Source: Paraphaeosphaeria minitans (lineage: Eukaryota; Ascomycota; Dothideomycetes; Pleosporales; Didymosphaeriaceae). Taken from it: 64,000 bases of DNA. Below the pieces are notes generated by a model. The model searched no databases, was not told the DNA's origin, and saw only the letters and a program-made list of their open reading frames with translations. A program made the position numbers and the translations under genes. The stretch is taken from assembly GCA_015832175.1 (NCBI GenBank), contig WJXW01000004.1:4030001-4094000 (forward strand), written 5' to 3'. Below, piece by piece: positions 7,675 to 63,005 of the stretch (position 1 is its first letter; every line of letters begins with the position of its first letter).

Positions 7675-8394
7675 ATGCAAACACCTTCGGAGTCCGATAA
7701 ACGGCTCCCTTATCGCCGCGGGATGCCCATACTCCCAGTACTGCCGCTGGAAACCCACGAAGTTCCTCTACCGCCAGAGCTAGCGAGAATACGGCAACCA
7801 ATCAGAGATATACCGAGCGACGAGAGCGTTTACCGCAAACACTGGGCCATCGTGAAGAGAGTTCGAAGAGACCAAAATCCGGCAGACGCCCCTTGGACGC
7901 TCCTTGTTCACGCGTACACCGATGACGGTCGACATCTGGCCCGTTGGGAGGCAGTTACGCAGCGTTTGCACTTGCTGTTGTGCGAGGCAAACGTGCATTG
8001 TTACATGGAGATTTTAGATGAAGCATATGACGAAGGAATGCGGACGAGTTGGTTGGACCGACGGTCACACCGTTCCGCCCTCGACGTTTGGCCTATGGCA
8101 GCACATCATGTGCTTTCTCTGATAAAAACGCAAAATTGGGTCTCCCTGAGTTGTGTTTCACGAAGACCAGCAAGCAAGGACGGTGAAGGGCATCCTACAG
8201 TGCTCATATGGGCCTCAGACGCTGATGACGAGTTTTGGTGGAATGAGTTAACACCACGACTGAAGGAAGACATGGACCTCCTTGATCTTAACATTGAGCT
8301 TGTACACTCGAAGGAGCTTACGCAAGCCACATGCGAAGCCAAGAAAGGCGTGAACGACAGCAACCCATTGCCGCCTCCTACAACCATCAGCTAG
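7675..8394 (+). CDS. Unknown protein, 239 aa
   Basis: Single-exon open frame starting at the first ATG (MQTPSESDKRLPYRRG). I do not recognise a family. The sequence is mixed alpha/beta-like and soluble, with a Pro-rich N-terminus (about 15-35), then VYRKHWAIVKRVRR, WTLLVHAYTDDGRH and an HLLLCEANVHCYMEILD helix. A C-terminal part has TVLIWASDADDEFWWNELTPRLKEDM. It has no signal peptide, membrane segment or zinc motif. Even hydrophobic periodicity and a start in a normal context argue for a real gene, possibly lineage-restricted. A slightly longer frame from 7594 has only TTG as opener and was not used. Confidence 0.55.
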   Translation: MQTPSESDKRLPYRRGMPILPVLPLETHEVPLPPELARIRQPIRDIPSDESVYRKHWAIVKRVRRDQNPADAPWTLLVHAYTDDGRHLARWEAVTQRLHLLLCEANVHCYMEILDEAYDEGMRTSWLDRRSHRSALDVWPMAAHHVLSLIKTQNWVSLSCVSRRPASKDGEGHPTVLIWASDADDEFWWNELTPRLKEDMDLLDLNIELVHSKELTQATCEAKKGVNDSNPLPPPTTIS

Positions 8395-8595
8395 GTCGGT
8401 AGTCGAGCTAGGTAGGTAGCCGACGCACCGGGATCGCAATCGCCCATGCAACGTGGGTACCTACTTGTACATACAACTGATAGGTAGCCATTTAGTACAC
8501 GTTTCTGCATACCTAGGTTGTGGTAGTTATGAATCTGCATCTCTGAAAACCGAGAAGAAAGTAAAAAAGAAGAATACTTGCTTTCCTGAATGGTC

Positions 8596-8722
8596 GGCCG
8601 CTTGGTCTAGTGGTGTAAGTGCATGAACTCGCGCTGTCGAAATCTCACGTGTGCTAATTGCTCTTCCAGATGACGTATCCTTCACACGGATAAGGTCCAG
8701 AGTTCGATCCTCTGAGTGGTCA
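8596..8722 (+). tRNA. tRNA-Val(CAC) interrupted in the D-loop
   Basis: Removing 8615-8669 leaves a 72-nt cloverleaf. The acceptor GGCCGCT (8596-8602) pairs with AGTGGTC (8715-8721), with two G-U pairs. The D-arm is GTC/GAC with A14, G18G19 and A21 in place. The anticodon stem TATCC/GGATA (8676-8692) carries the loop TTCACAC, anticodon CAC. The variable loop is AGGTC. The T-arm is CAGAG-TTCGATC-CTCTG, and the discriminator is A8722. The A box TGGTCTAGTGG (8603-8613) and B box AGTTCGATCCT are intact, and a T8 terminator follows at 8730. The anticodon loop has no intron at 37/38; the interruption lies between positions 20 and 21. It could be a working gene needing unusual splicing, or a pseudogene. 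Confidence 0.85.
8615..8669 (+). other. GT-AG intron-like insert inside tRNA-Val
   Basis: This 55-nt segment begins GTAAGT, has tGCTAATt about 12-16 nt before its end, then a pyrimidine-rich stretch and CCAG. These match the donor, branch site and acceptor of the protein-gene introns in this window, and the length matches them too. A weak alternative fold (AAG/CTT and TGG/CCA short helices around the 5' junction) could be read as a relaxed bulge-helix-bulge for tRNA endonuclease, but it would shift the junctions and cost A21. Confidence 0.75.
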
Positions 8723-9669
8723 AGATTTCTTTTTTTTCTTTCCTTCTTCCCGTCACTTGTGAGGCGGAAGGTGGCTGCTTGGTGGGTTGGTGTTTGAAGG
8801 TGTGAATGGGGTTGTGTGGAGTCTTTCCTTTCGACGGCGGCTCGCCTGCGCACGTAGCGTCTCGCCTAAGTGGGCTAGCGGTGCCGGATGACGTAAGGAC
8901 GGGCCACTCCACGTCCGCGTGCGGAATGTCCGGAGAGCCGAGGTCACCCCATCTCATCATACGACCAACGCGACACGTATTCACGCCCGACACCTTCGGC
9001 CGCTTGGCTAGTTTCCAACAGCAGACTGCAGATAAAATGAGTTGATTCCAGGACGGCGAGTTGGATGGGCCCATCTCTGGACTGCAAGTGGAATGCCGAT
9101 TTCTGGAGTGCACGTGAATTCGAGACTGCACGTGAAGTGGACTGGACTGCCTACTAGATACCTAGGCTCGAGGCTCGGCAGGGACCGGCTTTATAGATTG
9201 GCCCGTTGTCGTCTCCCACTCTCGCCGGGCTGGGCTGCACGCAATGCCGCTCCTCCCCTCCCCTTCCCCTCTCCTCCCTGACATGCGCGGCCGAGAAGCT
9301 GCACTGCCCGCTGCGGAACGGTACGTCAGACATCTACTCCAAACCGGACGGAGAGGCCTGGCCTGGGGATGCGACACGAGAATGTATCGGATTGGCCGGA
9401 TTGGCCTGCCCGCTCCTCATTGACACCCGCCGACGAAGGACTGGCCCGGCCTGGTGATTGGTGGGATCATGCTTCGCGATGCCGAGTACAGCGAGCACCA
9501 TCACGAGCATGCGAGGCCACCGTCTCTCCACTTGCTTGGCCCGCGCGTGAGCCCGTATATACAAGTCCGCCTACCCACGTACATCTACCATTCCTCACTC
9601 GGACATCTACCCTACCTCGCTGAATCCACTGCATCCATCACGACATCTCTTCGTACAATCTACATCCTC
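8723..9669. other. Intergenic between tRNA and small membrane protein gene
   Basis: No gene was recognised. A weak TATA-like TATATACA lies at 9556-9563, about 107 bp before the next ATG. The sequence has several CACGTG-type palindromes, including two in 9110-9137. Confidence 0.4.
8730..8737 (+). terminator. RNA polymerase III terminator
   Basis: A run of eight T begins 8 nt after the tRNA discriminator base; this is the standard polymerase III stop signal. Confidence 0.8.
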
Positions 9670-17536: not shown

Positions 17537-19600
17537 TCACATGGTAAGCCTTGTTCGCCTCCTCTTGCGGCCGCTCTCCACCTCCATACTCAATGACGAG
17601 TCACGGCAAGACCGCGGTGTTGAGAACCGCTCAATGATATCCTCCTTGAACTTGCGCCTTGGCTTCTCTTTCTTGATTTCCTTCTCTTCCTCGGGGTCCA
17701 CAAAGCGATGGATAGTGCGGTGATCGAGAACGCGCTCGTCAGTGTCGTGCTTACCCTCCCTATCCGTCTTGGGCCAGGAATATCCGTATAGCTTCGAATG
17801 GCGCTCGCAACGCGGACACTCCTTACGCGTTCCGCAATGGCTGTCTTCTTGCACGAATTGGTCGTCGCACGTCTGACACTCAACCCACTGGCGATCCTTA
17901 CCAGACAAGCGGGATTTCGATGTCATGTAGTCGCCTGGCTTGCGCGGGTTTTCTACCATGCCCTCCTCAGGTTCTTGATCTACTATCAGTGTCCCGACGA
18001 GATTGTGTACCATGTGGCGCGAACTCGACCGTGTATTCCGAGGTATCAGAGGCAGCTTCGGGCGCTTTCGTTTGACGATTTGCTGTAGCACATCGTCAAG
18101 ATCCAAACCGTCAGAAAGGTCACTCAGCTCGGACGAGGTATCGTTGGTGAAGAGCGAGGACCAAGGAGCATTTACCATTGTAATTTCGTCGCTGACAGTC
18201 GCAACACCTAGGGTTGGATTTTTTTGTATAGCATCAGGATCCACTTTGACCTTCGGGTTGTTCAGCCCCGATCCCTGCTCTTCGTCCACTGAAGTGGCGT
18301 CCGTAGACTGTGTTGACTTGGGCGAAGCAGCATCTGCTGAGGATTGAGGTGTCGTGTTCCGGGACGAAGAGTCGTCTTCGAGAACGATGTTGAAGAAGCC
18401 ACTGCGCTGATGGGTGCGCAGGTTTCGTGAAGTTGATGGAAGGTTGACAGCGGGGTCTTCTATACTGGAAACAGGTAATTCTTGTCGTAGACAAGAAGCA
18501 CTGATGGATTCCTTCAAGTTCGACCTTTGTGGTGGTGCGGTTCGTCTTGGAGGAGAAAGCGGCTTCGTGGTAGGTTCTGACTTTCTACGCTTGAACGCTG
18601 TGGTTGTTGCGCAATCGCCGGCTGCGCTGGGCTCTTCGTGCTTGCGCTTCCTTCGACGAAAAGAACTTTCTTCGTTATCGATGGCTGGCCTCTCCTTTTT
18701 TTCTCCCTCTCCATCATCGTTTTCGTCTTCGTCCTCGCTGTCCTCGATCGGTCTAAAGGGCGCCCATCCGTTCACCATTCGATCCTCGCAACTGTGGCAC
18801 AAGCACTCCTCATTGTCGATACCAAAATAATCCTCTCCGTACGATACTGTAATTTCTTCGCCTTCCTTGATTGGTTTGACCGCAACAATCTGCATACCAT
18901 CGTAGCCTTTCGTGGACAGCCTTGCGTTTGCGTCGCAGTCGTGATTGGCGAAACGCGCTGGACCAAGAAACAGAGAACGGGTCTTCTTTCGCGCGGATAT
19001 AACCAGACTGAAGTCTTTGCGAGCCAACTCCAGATTCTTCTCTTGCTCCTCGGTCATGGCGACCTGCACTCCAGTGAGGTACTTGATCTCTTCGCGGGGC
19101 TGGATGTCTCGGCGTGCGGTGATGGACGCCTCGTGGTCCGTTATGGTGTAGCGATTCGTCGTGGTGACCTCAAACGGGCAGTCCGGCAAGTATATAGAGA
19201 CATATCGGCGCAAATGCCTCTTGAAGTGCTCCCTGTCTGCGTCGTCCTTCAGCGTGGCGAGGAACTTCTTCAGGCCCGGCAGCTGGACCAGGCGATGCAT
19301 GGCCTCGGCAGAGTTCTTCTCGACAACGATGTGCTCGCGCAGGATGTTTGCAATGTCCTCCTCGTTCAGCCCTCTCGATCCGGAGAAGCGGCCGCCACGG
19401 TTCTTCCTGATGGTGGTCCAGTAGTAGACCTGCAGACGCGCCAATCAGCGGGTGGGTTCCATGGGTCCGGCGACTGGGCTGGCGCAAACGCAGCGTGTAG
19501 GACCTACCTTGTCGACGAGCGCATCTGTCAGTATGTCGTCGTACAGGGCCAGCTTCTCGAGCGTCAATGCGCCCCTTTTCGCCGTCTCTTTTGGAGCCAT
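17537..19600 (-). CDS. SET9: Histone H4-K20 methyltransferase SET9/KMT5
   Basis: SET9 methylates histone H4 lysine 20 on chromatin and works with the DNA-damage checkpoint. Exon 1 is 19600-19508 (MAPKETAKRGALTLEKL) and exon 2 is 19429-17537, separated by a 78-nt intron; total 661 residues. The SET domain spans about 110-240: ITARRDIQPREEIKYLTG, the cofactor/knot motif FANHDCDANARL near 191, then ITVSYGEDYFG and the Cys-rich ECLCHSCEDRMVNGW. The C-terminal 400 residues are charged and low-complexity, with a late CxxC pattern (QTCDDQFV...CPRCERH). Domain order and length match Suv4-20-type enzymes of fungi. It is divergent from uL14m. Confidence 0.93.
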
Positions 19601-29659: not shown

Positions 29660-32600
29660 TTAGTAAATCATCGATCGAACCTGATCCCTGCGATTCGCCA
29701 CTCCTCCAGGAACTTCTTTCCGCCGCGGCGCGGTGCTGCTCTTGTGGTGCTCGTCCTTCTCGATCGGTGGCGGGGCTGGTGAGGTTGGAAGGGCTGACTT
29801 TGTCCGCGAGTGGATTGGACGCTGCTTCACAGGGCTCGAGGGTACATATTGGCCTCCATGACCTTCATGTGAGCGTGGTCGCTGTAAAGCACTATTCACC
29901 GCGTTGCTCTCACGCTTCGGCTTGGCCTGTAAAGGCTCTGGCTGAGATCGCTTCTCTTTCCGCTCCTTATCAAGGACCATCTCAGCCCAGCCACGTCCGC
30001 CGGCGATATCTTTGCCAACGCACTCGGACAAGACCTTCATCCACTCCTCCTTTTGTTCGCGAGTATCGGCGTAAAAGTCAATGACCTCTCCGTTGGCGAA
30101 TCGAATGCGGAAGCCTTCCTCGACGAACATGTAGCCTTCTTCTTCCTCGGCAAAGGCTGACTTGCGACGTCCACCCGTCTTCGTTGAAGACGGCTGTTGA
30201 AGAGCAGTCTTGTCATCGATGAGCTTGGTGGCCTTGGCAAGGTTGATTGTGGCACGAGGTTGCCGTGTGGCTTCGTGGAAGGCGGTCAACTTTGTACCGC
30301 TGAGACGGAAGAATCGACGACGCCAGTACTGAGTCGAAATTAGTATTCATCCAAACACATCCTGATGGCGCAATCACTTACCGGGCAGTCTCCACCCTGC
30401 TGACTCAGAGGTCCTTCCCAAGATTGGTTCTTGACCTCTTCTGCTTCTCGGAGCTCGCGAATGCAGGCATTCATGCTCTTGGGCATGTCCTCGTCCTTGG
30501 CGTGCTTGGGCTTTGGAACATACAACAGCTGGAGAGCAAGCTTGCCAACTCGGTAGGGCGGGCGGCGAACAACGCCACCACGCTTGCTCTTCACACTGCT
30601 GGCGCCCGTGTCGTCGACAGCCCACTCGTTGAAGCAAGGGATGTCGGCGTTCAGCGGCCGACCGTAAGCTTGGTTCTCATGGTTCTTGAGACAGACGTAG
30701 GCACGAGCAAAAGATCCATCGGGTCCAACCAAGTCATGGAGAAGGTCCCATGCGGTAGCTTGATGATTGCGTTTCGCCTTTGCCTGTGCTTCTTGCTGCT
30801 GCTGGAGAGCCAGACGCTCGGCTTCTTCCTGCTGCTTGCGCTCTTGCTCCTTTCGCTTCTTGGGAGATGAAAGGAGATTACGGAATGCGGAGTGTGACTT
30901 CTTGTGGTTGACAATCTTGACTGGCGCTGCAGTGACCGTTGGCTGCGCAGGAGGCTCAAGCTTGGTCTGCAGGGTGAGTTGGAACTCAAGGTCATCCAAG
31001 ACGACTAGCTCGAATTCTTGACCAATGGGCGCTGAATGGCCAAGCTCAAGCCACGAAGTCGTCACACAATGCAAACCATTATCGAGAGTCAGTTGGAACC
31101 ACGTACGCTCGGCTAGTTCGTCAAGTCAGCAGATAGCTCTGTCAAGTCCGTTGACAACTTACTCTTAGGAAGAGGTAGGTCAAGATCCTTAACGCCAACA
31201 ACCTTGACAAACAACCGTCCTCGCTCTTGCCCCTCTTCAAATTCGTCCACGTCGCCTTCCGCGACCGAGTCCAGATTACCTGCGACAGCGGATTCCTGTC
31301 CTGGCATGGGAGGAACTGGTCCAGAGGTCATGGCTTTTCGCGAGCCAGACGCTGTTCGAATGCTCCGCCGCCTTGACTTACCATTCCAAGGCTCCTTGGT
31401 CCAAGCAGGCTTGGTCTCTGCGCTGATCTTACGAGCATTCACGGCCGGCGCCTTCAAGCCTGTATCGACAGGCTGTTCGATCTTTACCGCTGGGGGCTTC
31501 TCATCACTGAACTGGCGGCTGCTTGCGTAGACCACCTTGGTGCTTTGACGCATGAGATAACCCTTCTGTAGATTGGGACTACTGTTAGCGGGTGCGTACG
31601 TATAGATGAAGCCTTCACCAGACATGTGTCTTGCTCCATCTTGCTTTGTGGCAGTTGACGTCGGGAATTTGGCAAAACGGGGTAAAGGAAAAAGGTTGTC
31701 TACCTTTTGAGCTTCGATGATGTTGTCAAACTCCTTGTCTAGACCGAAGCTTAGATCGTTCGAGTCGTCACCAAGCTGCAAGTCCAGCATGAGGTTCTCT
31801 TTGTTCGACAGGGTCATCTGCGAGTCTTCCTCGTCGACATGACCGAAGTCCGTGCTCAACGACTGGCGTGCAGGGCTTCGCCTAGGAACTGGAGGTGGAT
31901 GCTCGCCGCTCACCTGTCGACGTTGTGCCGCCATGTCGACATCCGCTGGTATCAAGGACGGACGTGCCCTGAGCTTACCACTGGCACCTTTGATGGTGGC
32001 CTCTTCGTCAGGAACAGGAGAGCCTTCTTCGTCCTCAGGAGGTGAGATGACGATAGGATGGCGAATGACTGAATCGGGAGTGCCGGGATCCTCGACCTCA
32101 GCCTCAGGATCTGTAACCTCAGGTGTCTCTGGACGCTGGAGGAACTGGCGCATAGCATCAAGCTTGGGTGCCGTATCCAAGGGGCTCAGCGCGGTCTGGA
32201 ATGAGGACCGGAGTGGATCAAGTGTCAGATCCATCTCGTTGTTTTGGAAGTCAGCGAAAAGCTCATCCCGCTTGGCCTCCTTCTCTGCGGCAGTCGGGGA
32301 AGAGGTAGCTGCTGTTGGAGTGGAGGGTCCAGAAGTGTCGATGGTGCTCTGAGAAGTTGGTTGCTCCTCGGGCTGCGGCGAATACTCGCTTGCATCATCC
32401 GAATCAAGCTGACTATTCTGGTGGATTTCGTGATGGATAACAGACGTCTCTTGATCCTCATCTTGGCCATCTTCTTCGAACTCGGACACCTCAGTGTAGA
32501 TATCTGCCGTCTCTGCGAACGAATAAGCGTCGATGACACTATCAGCCTCGCTTGGTGCCTCCGGGTGCTCGTCAAAGTTGGAGGAGACTTCGCGCGAAGG

Positions 32601-40801: not shown

Positions 40802-42436
40802 ATGGAAGACCAATGGCTTCGTATGGGCAACGACAGACCATATCCGAAGATCATCGAGGACCGCGAATCATACGTCGTCATTTTTGATGGCCCAAACGAC
40901 CCTTGGCATCCTATGAATTGGTCCTTCAGCAAGAAGTATGTGAACACCTCTACAATTAGGAGCTTTGTCACTGATCCAGATCGGACAGATGCTGGATAGC
41001 AACCATGGTGTGCTACTGCACGCTTGTCGCCACTTTTAACAGCGCTCTATTCTCCCCAGCCGCAGCACAGGCAAGCCAAGACCTCTTCGTCGGGAAAGAA
41101 TTCGGCGCTCTGGCAACGAGCCTCTACATTCTCGGGTTTGCTTTCGGGCCATTGATCTGGGGCCCAGGATGCGAGCTCATGGGACGCCGAACGCCGCTCA
41201 TTGTGGGCTCCTTAGGATCCGCGGTGTTCACACTGGGAAGTGCTGTCGCCAAAGACATCCAGACGCTGATCATCTGCCGGTTCTTCGCAGGGGTGTTTGG
41301 TTCCAGCCCCCTCTGTGTTGTTCCGGGAATCTTGGCGGATGTATTCGACGACTACCAGCGGGGACCTTCAATTGCAATATACGCACTCGCGGTGTTCGCG
41401 GGACCGTTGGCGGCGTCTTTCATCGGAGGTTACATTGTGGACAGCTATCTCCGGTGGCGATGGACACTGTACCTGCCCGCCCTCATGGGCTTCTCTGCAA
41501 TGTTTTTGCTTCTGTTGTTCCTAGAAGAAACGCACGCTGATACCGTCTTGTTAGCAAAAGCCGCACGGATTCGTCAAGAGACTGGTAATTGGAGCATTCA
41601 TGCGGAACATTCAAGAGTCGAGGTGGACGCGCAGGCCTTGCTTCGAAAATATCTAGTCCGACCTTTGCGTATGTTGGTCACAGAGCCTATTGTGCTGCTC
41701 GTATCGATCTACATGTCTTTTATCTACGGATTGACCTATTGCCTGGTCGGTGCATATCCATACGTGTTTCAGAACACATACCGTATGAACAAGGGGACAG
41801 CCGCCTTGCCACTAGTGGCAGTAATCCTCGGTCTTTGCCTGGCGGTCTGCTTCATCATTTGGCAGCAACTCCAGAGCCAGAAGACATTGCTATCAGGTAA
41901 CGGCGCCTCGGAACCAGAGGCCCGGCTGCTTCCCGTGATTGTTGGGGCTTTCGTATTCCCCATTGGAATATTCTGGTATGTGTGCTGGCGATCGTCGCGT
42001 CCGTCCTCCATCCTGACGCGTGGTTGATAGGTTTTCCTGGACAGCTTTCAGGCCATCGATGCATTGGATGGTACCCACAGCATCAGGAGTCTTGACTGGA
42101 TTCGGCCTCCTGTGTATCTTCATGCCCTGCTTCAATTACTTGGTAGAAGCGTATCTGCCATTGTAAGTCATTGATATCAAGCCCGGTCTCGGGTTGCAAC
42201 TGACTTGACGAAGAGCAGCGTCCACAGTGGCTGCGAATGTCATGCTTCGTTCAGGAATCGCTGCCGGGTTTCCGTTGTTCTCTGTTCAGATGTTCGCCAA
42301 CTTAGGCATACAATGGGCGGGAACATTGTTAGGCTGCCTTGCTATCGCAATGATACCTATAGCTCTGGGCTTCCGAGCTTATGGTGCTCATTTTCGACGG
42401 AGTAAACTTTTGTCTGGAAGCAAGGTCATTGTGTAA
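40802..42436 (+). CDS. MFS transporter, drug:H+ antiporter/polyamine type, 491 aa
   Basis: Membrane exporter of the DHA1 family. Exons 40802-40935, 40989-41975, 42031-42162 and 42214-42436 (introns of 51-55 nt). The N-terminal cytosolic end has NDPWHPMNWSF, typical of fungal multidrug/polyamine transporters (TPO/FLR1-like). Transmembrane signatures follow: FGALATSLYILGFAFGPLIWGP, GPGCELMGRRTPLI (motif A region), FFAGVFGSSPLCVVPGILADVF (motif C-like), WRWTLYLPALMGF, and late segments such as VMLRSGIAAGFPLFSVQMF and GTLLGCLAIAMIPIALGF. The substrate cannot be told from sequence. It is followed 358 bp later by a cytochrome b5 reductase and then a Zn2Cys6 factor. Confidence 0.9.
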
Positions 42437-47329: not shown

Positions 47330-48507
47330 CTAGTGACCACCAGTCGTGGGCAGCTGCAATTATCGGTCAGTGCGTATACTTTGGGTGTCGCAGCGGCAGA
47401 ACTTACGCCGAGGTAGACCTTGAACGAATCGTAGATGAGCCACTGGAACGCCGTCAAGGTACCGATCATGAAGATACGAACGGGAAGACCGTTCCAGAGG
47501 CCACCGAAGCCTATCTTGCCGTAAATCCTGGTCATGGCTTGTCCAGCGCCTTCGCCAGGTTTGCGGTCCGAGTTCAACTTGGACACCATAACATCTGCGG
47601 CATGTCAGCATTCAGACACAATATATTTGAGCATGACTTACCTGCGGGGTGCGAAACAACCGCGCATCCAATACCCGCAATATAGCCACCCAAGAACGAC
47701 ACACCCGTCTGCTGCAGGGAGTTGAACGATTCCTTGGGCTTACCAAGGTACTTGTAAATCTGCTCCACCGTCTTCTCAAACGAAGTGAACTTCACCATCG
47801 TATACGGAATCTGGCGTCCCCACAGGGGATACAAACCCTTGTACAGTCCAGCGTAACCCTCCTGGCTAACGACCTTGCCCCAGCCTTCTCTCAAGCTATG
47901 CGCAAATGGCGGTAGCGTGGTCTGCATACGGACCTTGATGGCTTCGAGCGGACACAGCGCAATGTCGGCGAGAGCTTCGGCGGAGGCAGAGGCAGCAAGG
48001 AATACAACGGTCTTGTTGGCGTTTGGCGCGAGCTTGTCGCCATAGAGGTACTTGAAGACCTCGTAGAAGCCGTATTTGCCAGCGCCTTGCAGCGAGTAGC
48101 CAACGAAGGTGGGTGTCCAGCCAAAGAACACGCCGCGGAGGCCCTCCTTGGAGTAGATCATTTTCCAGGCTTGCGTGTTAGACTTGTAGAGCTTATCGTC
48201 CACTTGTCGACGGCATTTTACCTGTGACAGACCATCAGTATGCATGCATCCATGAACGCGGTGAAAGTCTGTCGGATGAGGATCAGATTGGGGGAAAAGA
48301 ACGGGCGACATACCAAGTCTAGAGGTGTGACCATTGTGTGTGTAGGACCGCAAGCTGAATCAATTAGCATATGTCACAGGAGGATGCCCGCTACCAATCC
48401 GCCATACCGATGATTCCACCCATTGTGCAGGCAGCGAAGTACGAGCCAGAGAACAATTCAATCTTCTTCGCCCCAGCGCTTTCTGCCTTTCCGCTTGCGC
48501 TCGCCAT
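47330..48507 (-). CDS. PIC2: Mitochondrial phosphate/copper carrier PIC2
   Basis: Inner-membrane solute carrier (SLC25) for phosphate and, in yeast, copper. Five exons: 48507-48408, 48354-48314, 48221-47642, 47594-47407 and 47353-47330, giving 310 residues. Three carrier repeats are visible. Repeat 1 has [16 protein letters not shown] and [12 protein letters not shown] (PxDxxKxRxQ-type); repeat 2 has [17 protein letters not shown]; repeat 3 has [47 protein letters not shown] is typical of phosphate carriers. Which of MIR1 or PIC2 it equals is a judgement from the short N-terminus without a presequence. Confidence 0.9.
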
Positions 48508-51128: not shown

Positions 51129-52814
51129 ATGAACGTCCAATTAGAGGAATGTGAGTTCTCACCACGCCCTACGATGGGTACCCAATCTCGCTGACCTCGT
51201 CCAGACATCACCAGCGCGAACGAGTGCTTCGAGCTCAACCTCACCCGTCCCTCCCAAGATCCAGCGCCCGAGCCTGCATTCAGTGAATCGTTCCATCCTA
51301 CCCATACCTATGCCTTTTTCGGCGAAGACGAGGAGATTATTGGCTACAAGGAGCCCTACATCAAGTTGACCTTTCGCGCAAACGACATGAAGCCTTCGCT
51401 GAAGGCAGGCTTTGAGGAGAAGGTCGAGCTCCCGGAGGAAGTCTATACCGAGAAACATCTCAAGGTCGACTTTGCGACTGTGTTCGAGGATTACCTTCCC
51501 GCCTGTAAGTGCCTCCCTCGTAACCCACCAGCTCACGCTTACTGACGCCCACCAGCTGTGTTCGACCGCTCCGAGACCCCGGTCGAAGGTGCGCGGACCG
51601 ATCCCACATCCAAGGACTGGAGGCCGCCCGGCAAGCAGCTGCACACATTTACACACCACGGCAAACAGTTGGAGATATGGGTTGCAAACTTGACAGATCC
51701 CACCGCGCGAAGTCTGTGGGACAACATGCGGATACTGCCTATACTCTTCATCGAAGGTGCGACCTTGCCTGAGCTGGATGTTGACTGGTCGAACGAGAGG
51801 TGGTCCTTGTACATGCTGTACGAAGTCACTCCCGCTGGTGATGATGTCTCGCCTTACACGCTCGCCGGCTTCTCTACCACATACCGCCTATGGCTGCTCC
51901 CAACCTTTGAGATCTTGCGCTCGACAAAGACCCTCCCTTCGTCTCCTGCCAGCACCAATGGCGACGCTGGTAAATGGGCTCCTTCAAAACTCACCCAAGA
52001 CCCGGAGACTTTCCGCATAACTGAGCATATCGACCCGCTGGAACAACCGTCGCGTGAACGAATCTCGCAGTTCCTGATACTCCCACCCTACCAGGGCCAA
52101 CATCTCGGAGCGACGCTATACCAGACCATTTTCGCACATCTCGTCAAGAGGCCATCTATCTACGAATTGACCGTGGAAGACCCAGACGAGGCATTCGATG
52201 CGATGCGCGATTACGGCGACATGGTGTATCTCCACACACTGCCCACTTTCCAGTCACTGACCATTCCCGCGACCATACCAAGAGAGAAGCTCGCGAAGAG
52301 TGCTCCTATACCGCGCGATGAAATATTGGGCAACGGCGTCGACCTCGGCCAGTTGCAGCGTGAAACCAAGATTGTGTCACGTCAATTCAATCGCATGCTT
52401 GAACTTCACCTCTTATCTACGATTCCGCCTGCCCATCGAAACAAGAACCGCATCACCCGCAAAGATAGATGCTCGAATGAAAACGACCGGCGCTACTACT
52501 TCTGGCGGTTGGCTGTGAAAGATAGGATATACCGCCAGAACAGAGACTCGTTGGAGAACATGGAGGAAGGAGAAGAAGCTCTCACAACCGCACAGAAGGT
52601 GGAAATGATTGAAAATGCTCTGGACAACCAGCAAGATGAGTACGAGGAGCGATTGAAGGGTCTGGAGAAGCGGGCAAAGTGGAAGAATGGACAGAAACTG
52701 CACGGTTCGAGCACCAGGTCCAAGCGGAAGAAGATGGTTGTGGAGGAGGATGAAGATGACGAATGGGAAGACATGGACGATGAGAGTGTCAGCTCGAAGA
52801 GAGCGAGGGTCTGA
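51129..52814 (+). CDS. HAT1: Histone acetyltransferase type B catalytic subunit HAT1
   Basis: HAT1 acetylates newly made histone H4 at lysines 5 and 12 with its partner HAT2. Exons 51129-51150, 51205-51504 and 51556-52814 give 526 residues. The N-terminal domain has SANECFELNLTRP and FHPTHTYAFFGEDEEIIGYKEP. The catalytic region has WSLYMLYEVTP, then FLILPPYQGQHLGATLYQTIF (acetyl-CoA loop, about 277-297), EDPDEAFDAMRDYGD with the catalytic Glu/Asp region, and a helical C-terminus. The last 80 residues are charged and end KRARV, a likely nuclear signal. Domain order and length fit the family. Confidence 0.93.
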
Positions 52815-61114: not shown

Positions 61115-63005
61115 ATGGACAAGATTCATCGCTTCAATGTGGTGCATCGCTTTGAAAAGCGAGCACTGCTCATCGCGTAATAATACCTCATGGTCACATC
61201 TCTCCATCGCTAACGGCACCTTCTAGCATCAATTGCATAGCTGGCCTTTCCATCCTTTTCTTTGGGTATGATCAGGGAATGATGGGTAAGCACATCTTCT
61301 ATGACTATCTCAACAAGGCGACTAAGCAGGGCCAACAGGTGGTGTCAACACGGCATACGACTACTACACAAGAATGGGATTTGGACATAAAGGCGCAGAC
61401 GGTGGCGTGGTCGTTACCAACGATATCCTCCAGGGCGGTATCGTATCCGTCTACTACCTGGGTACACTTGTAGGTGCTCTCGTTGGAGGTTGGTTCGGAG
61501 ATCGTTTTGGACGCATCAAGACCATCTTCTTGGGAGCAGCAATTGGCGTTGTGGGTGCGACACTTCAGACTTCAGCCATGGATCACCAATGGATGATCTG
61601 CGCTCGTCTCGTCAACGGATGGGGCACTGGGATCCTCAATTCCATCATTCCTGTGTGGGCAACCGAAACTGCAGAGCATACCTCGCGTGGCCAATTCATT
61701 GCCATCGAGTTTACACTAAACATCTTTGGTGAGTGCCATTCCACACGATTGGCAACATTATCGAGGTTGAGACGCTAATAGTACTCCAGGTGTTGTCTTG
61801 GCCTATTGGATCGAATACGGATGCTCCTTCTACGGCGACGGGACTTCATCCTTCATCTGGCGCTTTCCCATCGCTTTCCAGATTCCCATGCTGCTCATGC
61901 TTATGATTCTTGTCATATTCTTTCCAGAAAGTCCCCGGTGGCTTGTCAAAGTAGGCCGAGAAGACGAAGCACGTTATGTTCTCGGGCGGCTCCGTGGAAA
62001 TGGTACTGGAGAAGAACAAGAGAAGGCAGAGGCCGAGTTTCAAGACATCGTCAACTCTGTCGAGATTGAACGCTCCGGAAGCAAGGGATCTCAGTCTTAC
62101 TTCCACATGTTCTTTGGCATTGGTTCAGGAAAGCTTCACACAGGCCGACGAGTGCAATTGGTCATTTGGCTCCAGATCATGCAGGAATGGGTGGGGATTG
62201 CAGGTGAGTTTTCAGTAAGAAGAAGAGCGAATTCGTTGAGACTGACATACTTAACCCAGGTGTGACAATTTATGCACCAACTATCTTTGGCATCGCAGGC
62301 ATGTCGCCTGAGAAACGTCAGTGGATCGCAGGCCTAAACAATATCTTTTACATGTTTTCGACTTTGATCTGCGTTTTCACGCTCGACCGGATCGGGCGAC
62401 GCTGGACTCTCTACTGGGGCTCAGTTGGACAGTGTATTGCGATGGCGCTCGCCGGCGGCTTCTCATACCTAGGTCGACAGGGTACCCTGGAAGATAATGC
62501 TGCCAAGGCCTCAGCATACGGAAACGCTGCCGTGTCCATGGTCTACATCTTCACGTTTATCTTCGGCGCGACCTGGCTGACAGTGCCGTGGCTATACCCT
62601 GCGGAGATCTTTCCACTTGAGGTGCGTGCCAAGGGCAATGCGTGGGGAGTCGTGGGTTGGTCAATCGGCAACGGATGGCTTACGCTCCTGTGCCCCGTCA
62701 TGTTCAAGGCGCTCAGCGAGAAAACGCTTTACATTTTTGCGGCCTGCAATGCAATCACCATCCCCATGGTGTGGGCATTATATCCCGAGACGAACCAACG
62801 CACACTGGAGGAGATCGATTTGCTATTTGCTGCGGACAGCATCTGGAACTGGGAGGCGGAGAAGAATTTCACAAGGTTGCAAGAACAGATGGGTGTGGGT
62901 ATGTCTGGCTCGCGTGCCGATGAAGAGGCGCCTCACAGCCGCAAAGGCAGCGTCGTTCGTGGCATGAGCCTGCACTACGAGGGTACAAAGCCGCAAGACA
63001 GATAG
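61115..63005 (+). CDS. MFS sugar transporter, 556 aa
   Basis: Plasma-membrane hexose/quinate-type transporter of the MFS sugar-porter family. Five exons: 61115-61176, 61227-61285, 61339-61728, 61790-62203 and 62260-63005 (introns of 50-61 nt). Family signatures are in place: LFFGYDQGMMGGVNTAYDYY, GDRFGRIK (motif A), MICARLVNGWGTGI, FPESPRWLV, LDRIGRRWTLYWGS, WLTVPWLYPAEIFPLEVRAKG (motif PxxxPAEIFP) and YPETNQRTLEEIDLLF. Twelve membrane helices are expected. The C-terminal 70 residues are hydrophilic with Ser, His and Arg, likely cytosolic. The substrate is not determined by sequence. Confidence 0.92.

Follow-up and report, generated by a model that had tools for sequence, protein, structure and literature searches.

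Ordinary introns of eukaryotic nuclear tRNA genes lie between positions 37 and 38 and are removed by the tRNA endonuclease. Introns of a different kind, called non-canonical, have been found in Cyanidioschyzon merolae, in nucleomorphs and in Archaea, where they occupy sites in the D and T arms and where more than one of them may interrupt the same gene. Those of the red alga are located in the D, anticodon and T arms and are associated with bulge-helix-bulge (BHB) motifs (PMC9602550, PMC4090602), and in the Guillardia theta nucleomorph lengths of 3-24 nt have been reported (PMC4090602). A review of tRNA introns published in 2014 regards insertions in the D and T arms of eukaryotic tRNA genes as probable pseudogenes, with the exception of algae and nucleomorphs, and the string "spliceosom" does not occur in its main text (PMC4090602). 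A 2017 paper names U3 and U6 as the only small structured RNAs then known to be often interrupted by introns, and cites the removal of the fission yeast U6 intron by the spliceosome, a precedent for splicing of an RNA made by RNA polymerase III (pol III) (PMC5832005). Recent gain of spliceosomal introns in Dothideomycetes has been described for Introner-like elements (PMC4457414). Spliceosomal introns of small RNA genes are a known kind, and tRNA genes are a host class for which we found no report of them in the open-access papers searched, preprints excluded.

Paraphaeosphaeria minitans (Pleosporales) is a mycoparasite used against Sclerotinia. We analyzed a 64,000-nt stretch of its genome (hereafter the window) containing a tRNA-Val(CAC) gene with an insert in the D loop, together with other tRNA genes of the assembly. 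As in the fungal U6 snRNA (in Schizosaccharomyces pombe and others), a pol III product, and in the U3 snoRNA, a short intron with GT, branch-site and AG signals is found here in a gene for a small structured RNA. However, the hosts are tRNA genes rather than snRNA or snoRNA genes, they include 12 isoacceptors interrupted at 11 sites, and the U6 match in the same genome is uninterrupted. The D- and T-arm locations and the presence of more than one intron per gene are reminiscent of the non-canonical introns, but spliceosomal signals are present instead of the BHB motifs described for C. merolae (PMC9602550), none of which was found here, and the length of 49-68 nt differs from that reported for G. 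theta (PMC4090602). Introner-like elements are known from the same class of fungi (PMC4457414), whereas the introns described here reside in tRNA genes, and those from different sites cannot clearly be regarded as copies of one another. We propose, with a probability of about 0.9, that the insert is a U2-type spliceosomal intron residing in a nuclear tRNA gene transcribed by pol III, that the genome contains at least 20 introns of this kind, and that the insert would be removed by the spliceosome.

Anatomy of the interrupted tRNA-Val(CAC) gene

The original prediction, made from the letters of the window, described a tRNA-Val(CAC) gene split by positions 8615-8669, with intact A and B boxes, a T8 terminator, and an insert similar to the introns of nearby protein genes. 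The gene extends over positions 8596-8722 of the window, on the + strand of contig C4, and comprises the following features:

8596-8614, + strand: exon 1 of tRNA-Val(CAC), positions 1-20 (5' strand of the acceptor stem, 5' strand of the D stem, and D loop to U20)
8603-8613, + strand: A box TGGTCTAGTGG, complete and uninterrupted
8615-8669, + strand: 55-nt spliceosomal-type intron between D-loop positions 20 and 21
8615-8620, + strand: 5' splice site GTAAGT
8654-8658, + strand: branch-site-like CTAAT, with the putative branch A at 8657, 12 nt before the intron end
8667-8669, + strand: 3' splice site CAG (the intron ends with TTCCAG)
8670-8722, + strand: exon 2 of tRNA-Val(CAC), positions 21-73
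8683-8685, + strand: anticodon CAC, assigned by ARAGORN on the joined exons
8701-8711, + strand: B box AGTTCGATCCT
8730-8737, + strand: T8, likely a pol III terminator, read from the sequence

ARAGORN identifies the joined exons as a 72-nt tRNA-Val(CAC) and calls no tRNA in the unjoined gene, and the score of the uncut gene under the tRNA model of Rfam, 19.9 bits, falls short of the cut-off, which is 29; in a scan of positions 8000-9300 with Rfam, a weak tRNA match is the sole match listed. In the joined product 20 of the 21 tested stem positions are paired. There is a single register of the insert that yields the tRNA-Val(CAC) product, and it is the one bounded by GT and AG. The insert leaves the A box complete and the B box unaltered. 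The cloverleaf, both boxes and the T-run terminator of a functional tRNA gene are all present, and the predicted coordinates and features, including the T8 at 8730-8737, proved to be correct.

For comparison with protein genes, candidate introns were collected by joining reading frames, which yielded 103 loci in the window, most of them plainly false. Nine were joined, six were scanned, and four, in which a Pfam domain spans the junction, were used; the candidate at 40936 was left out because its Pfam domain begins after the junction, and the one at 47595 does not count among the four. The four introns, and one further protein gene of the window, are:

61729-61789, + strand: intron of a sugar transporter gene, GTGAGT..GCTAAT..CCAG (Pfam Sugar_tr 13-272 spans the junction at aa 134)
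62204-62259, + strand: second intron of the same sugar transporter gene (Pfam Sugar_tr 5-334 spans the junction at aa 144)
51505-51555, + strand: intron of a HAT1-like gene (Pfam Hat1_N 6-170 spans the junction at aa 103)
30329-30381, - strand: intron of a gene for an anillin/PH protein, GTAAGT..TACTAAT..TCAG (Pfam PH 237-351 spans the junction at aa 248)
17540-19444, - strand: gene for a SET9-like protein, 100% identical to a P. minitans protein over 99% of its length

These introns are 51-61 nt long, start with GTRAGT, end with AG, and carry CT[AGT]A[CT] 10-14 nt before the end. The tRNA inserts match this small sample in both length and signals, in agreement with the predicted resemblance.

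The window gene is nevertheless a weaker exhibit than the genome-wide set presented below, and it may be poorly expressed. Neither a TATA-like nor a CATCA-like motif, both frequent at tRNA genes of this genome, was found within 80 nt upstream, and genome searches revealed no second copy with the same exons. Many other normal Val(CAC) genes, combined with the lack of a joined product from this locus, had been named in the original prediction as a sign of a pseudogene; a single further one was found, at C3:283067-283157, preceded by TATATA and containing what we read as an ordinary 37/38 intron. The missing upstream motifs and the presence of this second Val(CAC) gene make the window gene less certain, and it could be a decaying or very weakly expressed copy within an otherwise real phenomenon. 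We consider this rather unlikely, as its stems are paired, its boxes and T8 are intact and its splice signals are clean, and as the Arg(TCG) and Asp genes of the genome-wide set also lack a CATCA-like motif.

Splice signals in 20 tRNA genes

Nuclear tRNA loci in the 47.45-Mb assembly were collected with the tRNA model of Rfam (scores obtained for 62 of 1307 candidates), a fixed B-box pattern (65 places, from which those not tRNA-like were discarded by eye), DNA queries made of spliced exons (in two of which 40 of 51 and 40 of 57 candidates were scored) and an A-arm pattern. The union comprises 105 loci, of which four are mitochondrial-like, leaving 101 nuclear loci, to which a Glu gene lying next to another one has to be added. 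These numbers represent a minimum. They exclude two damaged places (L063 and L104), and for four of the loci, namely three copies of Asp and one of Glu, the assessment used match coordinates alone. Genes for His and elongator Met tRNAs were not found in this collection. Spliceosomal-type inserts are present in 20 genes among the approximately 101 loci, at 11 sites in the D arm, the anticodon loop, the variable loop and the T arm (in standard tRNA numbering, assigned by hand):

Val(CAC): contig C4 (window gene), site 20/21
Initiator Met: C1, site 38/39
Initiator Met: C9 and C17, site 46/47
Leu(CAG): C10, site 10/11
Trp: C5 and C14, site 23/24
Val(TAC): C6, site 15/16
Ala(CGC): C7, site 25/26
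Arg(TCG): C3, site 18/19
Arg(ACG): C16, site 52/53
Pro(AGG): C1 and C7, site 21/22
Pro(TGG): C1, site 20/21
Asp: C3, site 52/53
Gly(GCC): C3, C5, C8, C12 and C13, site 60/61

All 20 inserts start with GT, end with AG and contain CT[AT]A[CT], with the branch A located 9-13 nt from the 3' end. Eight inserts begin with GTAAGT, six with GTGAGT, two each with GTACGT and GTATGT, that of Ala with GTAAGC and that of Arg(TCG) with GTAAGA. The length is 49-57 nt in 19 of them and 68 nt in Arg(ACG), as opposed to the catalytic core of some hundred nucleotides of group I and group II introns, which were rejected on these grounds. ARAGORN detects a tRNA in each of the 20 joined sequences, with the expected anticodon in 18; in the remaining two, Val(TAC) and the Gly gene of C5, the intron of the anticodon loop is put in the wrong place. 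As taken here, the first exon of Val(TAC) begins one base late, which leaves the junction unaffected. From the unjoined sequences no call is obtained in ten cases, and most of the other calls have a wrong anticodon or wrong limits; the initiator gene of C1 is called whole, with a 53-nt anticodon-loop intron.

Ordinary 37/38 introns are also present in this genome. In addition to the spliceosomal-type intron, an ordinary anticodon-loop intron is found in 15 of the 20 interrupted genes, all but the window gene, Leu(CAG) and the initiator genes of C1, C9 and C17. The ordinary introns differ in their position, in their removal by the tRNA endonuclease and in their sequence: among 53 ordinary introns called by ARAGORN, two show GT..AG in any of nine registers, and none does when the branch motif is added. 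Four copies of tRNA-Phe have long ordinary 37/38 introns without GT..AG. In ten of the 20 inserts the register that restores the tRNA is unique and coincides with GT..AG, while in the other ten GT..AG is one of two to five registers restoring the same tRNA. A chance origin of the GT..AG ends was rejected on the basis of the 53-intron control and the ten unique registers, and the recurrence of the same signals in 19 further tRNA genes, as opposed to none of the 53 ordinary introns, places the window insert, too, beyond chance.

Another possibility is that the inserts are cut by the tRNA endonuclease at BHB motifs, as in C. merolae and Archaea, the GT..AG ends being incidental. The red alga provides examples in all three arms (PMC9602550, PMC4090602), and the insert of the C1 initiator gene, at 38/39, lies near the usual site; the other 19 are elsewhere in the tRNA, and none is at 37/38. 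Cleavage at a BHB was also the refuting alternative of the original prediction. With a geometry of our own, used with no positive control, strict BHB motifs are found at none of the 20 junctions, even with 1-nt shifts, and relaxed ones at one junction, compared to a mean of 1.5 in shuffled sequences. By contrast, GT, AG and the branch motif occur together in every insert and in none of the ordinary introns. Moreover, CATAA is restored in the C1 initiator gene by no cut other than the GT-AG one; cleavage at 37/38 would leave CATAG. Cleavage at BHB motifs is thus highly improbable.

Other loci in the collection show peculiarities of their own. The L106 locus (C14:416012-416172) resembles a tRNA gene whose anticodon arm is interrupted by some 80 nt lacking GT..AG. 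L104 (C12:1506495-1506792), together with a Glu-like match that extends to 1506805, looks like a damaged version of an Ile-Glu pair such as that at C4:352308, and L104 and the Glu-like match are likely tRNA pseudogenes, while L063 (C1:3121329-3121346) has a chimeric appearance, with the 3' half of a tRNA right behind a fragment resembling the 5' end of tRNA-Ser. All four tRNA-Tyr genes that were read (L079, L096, L111 and L113) have a GC-rich inverted repeat (similar to GCGCG...CGCGC) a few bases upstream. The Val(AAC) genes L067, L073, L075, L085 and L112 have no T4 run within 25 nt downstream, and three of them (L067, L075 and L112) share the stretch CTCCTGTT after a short inverted repeat. 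Two identical tandem Thr(AGT) genes adjoin an inverted Val(AAC) gene at C3:286483-286673. AT-rich tRNA genes of mitochondrial type (L010, L013 and L014) are located at C3:2840217-2853194, within a contig of 4.29 Mb, and point either to a large copy of mitochondrial DNA within the nuclear genome or to a join made during assembly.

Intron-free paralogs and the initiator tRNA

Wherever paralogs permit comparison, the insertion is precise. The exact junction, with 8-16 nt on each side, is found uninterrupted in paralogs of the Ala, Arg(TCG), Arg(ACG), Asp and Pro(TGG) genes and of four of the five Gly genes, and both Pro(AGG) junctions are uninterrupted in the locus L131. The initiator genes serve as empty sites for each other, since the gene of C1 is unsplit where those of C9 and C17 are split, and vice versa, which brings the total to 14 of the 20 genes. 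No paralog with an uninterrupted junction was found for either Trp gene or for Val(CAC), Val(TAC) and Leu(CAG). The fifth Gly gene (C8) fails the exact match solely because the GCATCGG/CCGATGC of the others is replaced in it by GCATTGG/CCAATGC. This compensatory change of an acceptor-stem pair, with one half on each side of the intron, is the only difference between the mature exons.

We infer that the introns were gained by insertion of spliceosomal introns, for which the original prediction proposed reverse splicing as a putative route. The five Gly introns, which share one site, have kept GTGAGT, CTAAC and AG, while their interiors have diverged. Recent copying among the tRNA introns in the manner of Introner-like elements was considered and found to be unsupported: only three of 175 pairs of introns from different sites exceed a z of 3 (3.2 to 3.6), and for the same reason no source intron was identified. 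The clearest similarity, with a z of 5.5, is that between the introns of the two Pro(AGG) paralogs, located at one site.

The initiator tRNA-Met is the strongest case for selection on the joined product. Three loci were found, all of them interrupted, at two different sites, and searches of the assembly did not reveal an uninterrupted initiator gene. To our knowledge the arm GGGCTCATAACCC is universal in initiator tRNAs; in the assembly it occurs without a mismatch only in two initiator copies, those with the intron in the variable loop. With all initiator genes found interrupted and none intact, the inserts would have to be removed: unless the assembly misses a gene or a diverged copy was overlooked, an organism unable to do so could not start protein synthesis.

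These observations bear on the explanation that intron-like DNA has been copied into the interrupted genes, which would be silent pseudogenes, a view that the 2014 review takes of insertions in the D and T arms in eukaryotes (PMC4090602). Intron-free copies are retained by Ala, both Arg types, Asp, both Pro types and one of the six Gly genes, hence the interrupted copies in these families could be unneeded, and the window gene has a Val(CAC) paralog and no upstream motifs within 80 nt. However, apart from all three initiator genes, the interrupted genes include, among the matches listed, both Trp genes and the only Val(TAC) and only Leu(CAG) genes. Furthermore, the stems have remained paired, with a compensatory change across a Gly intron, and the splice signals have been kept while the interiors diverged. 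We therefore regard this explanation as scarcely credible. The silent gene that the original prediction offered as its alternative does not account for the set of 20 and retains some plausibility for the window gene alone. Its preferred interpretation, an mRNA-type intron removed by the spliceosome, is strongly supported at the level of sequence by the 20 genes, the 53 control introns, the intron-free paralogs and the failure to find an uninterrupted initiator gene.

Transcription, processing and implications

With the intron in place, 18 of the 20 genes have a complete A box, and Leu and Val(TAC), in which the intron lies inside the box, match it at seven of eight positions. The intron does not alter the B box in 15 genes, among them Arg(ACG) and Asp, where its terminal G rebuilds GGTTCGA; in the Gly genes, five in number, the match drops from nine to seven of nine positions. 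The sites of insertion thus seem to be restricted to those that keep the internal promoter usable. Upstream, a CATCA-like motif is found in 17 genes and a TATA-like motif in seven (for nine genes the upstream sequence comprises 40 nt or less). A T5 run follows 17 genes, but not Leu and two Gly genes, for one of which 10 nt are shown. Inside the inserts the longest T run is of four, in Val(TAC). An origin of the introns in pol II transcripts, either UTRs or long non-coding RNAs, that overlap tRNA genes by chance can practically be dismissed, even though a 266-codon ORF on the same strand stops some 200 nt before the window gene, since removal restores the tRNA exactly in 20 genes, at 11 tRNA positions, many of which are uninterrupted in paralogs.

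Under the spliceosomal interpretation, pol III would transcribe the tRNA gene through the intron, as is suggested by the largely preserved A and B boxes and by the lack of a T5 stop run in any of the introns. The spliceosome would then recognize the GU..CUAAY..AG signals, release the intron as a lariat and join the exons, and the product would fold as a tRNA. In 15 of the 20 genes the tRNA splicing endonuclease would also cut at 37/38; as this enzyme measures from the tRNA body (PMC4090602), the spliceosomal removal of D- and T-arm introns should come first. Not every pol III gene is affected, as judged by the single U6 match (47 of 2663 candidates scored) and by 28 full-length 5S rRNA matches dispersed over many contigs (47 of 2502 candidates scored), all of them uninterrupted, although interrupted copies of either could be missed by such searches.

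The spliceosome probably helps to make tRNAs in this fungus. We further consider it likely that it is an essential tRNA-processing machine, on which the initiator and Trp tRNA genes found would all depend, that two unrelated splicing systems act on one and the same pre-tRNA, and that spliceosomal introns have repeatedly entered pol III-transcribed tRNA genes, at 11 sites, coupling the capacity for pre-mRNA splicing to the initiation of translation. Introns of nuclear tRNA genes are usually assigned to the tRNA endonuclease (PMC4090602); if our interpretation is correct, a further type of nuclear tRNA intron exists, and standard models can miss the genes that carry it, as exemplified by the score of the window gene. 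These genes would also provide a natural record of intron gain in which selection on the exons is known base by base. With fully known exons and many intron-free paralogs, they constitute a clean system for studying both the gain of spliceosomal introns and the action of the spliceosome on pol III transcripts. For P. minitans itself, the supply of tRNAs, including the initiator, would depend on the spliceosome.
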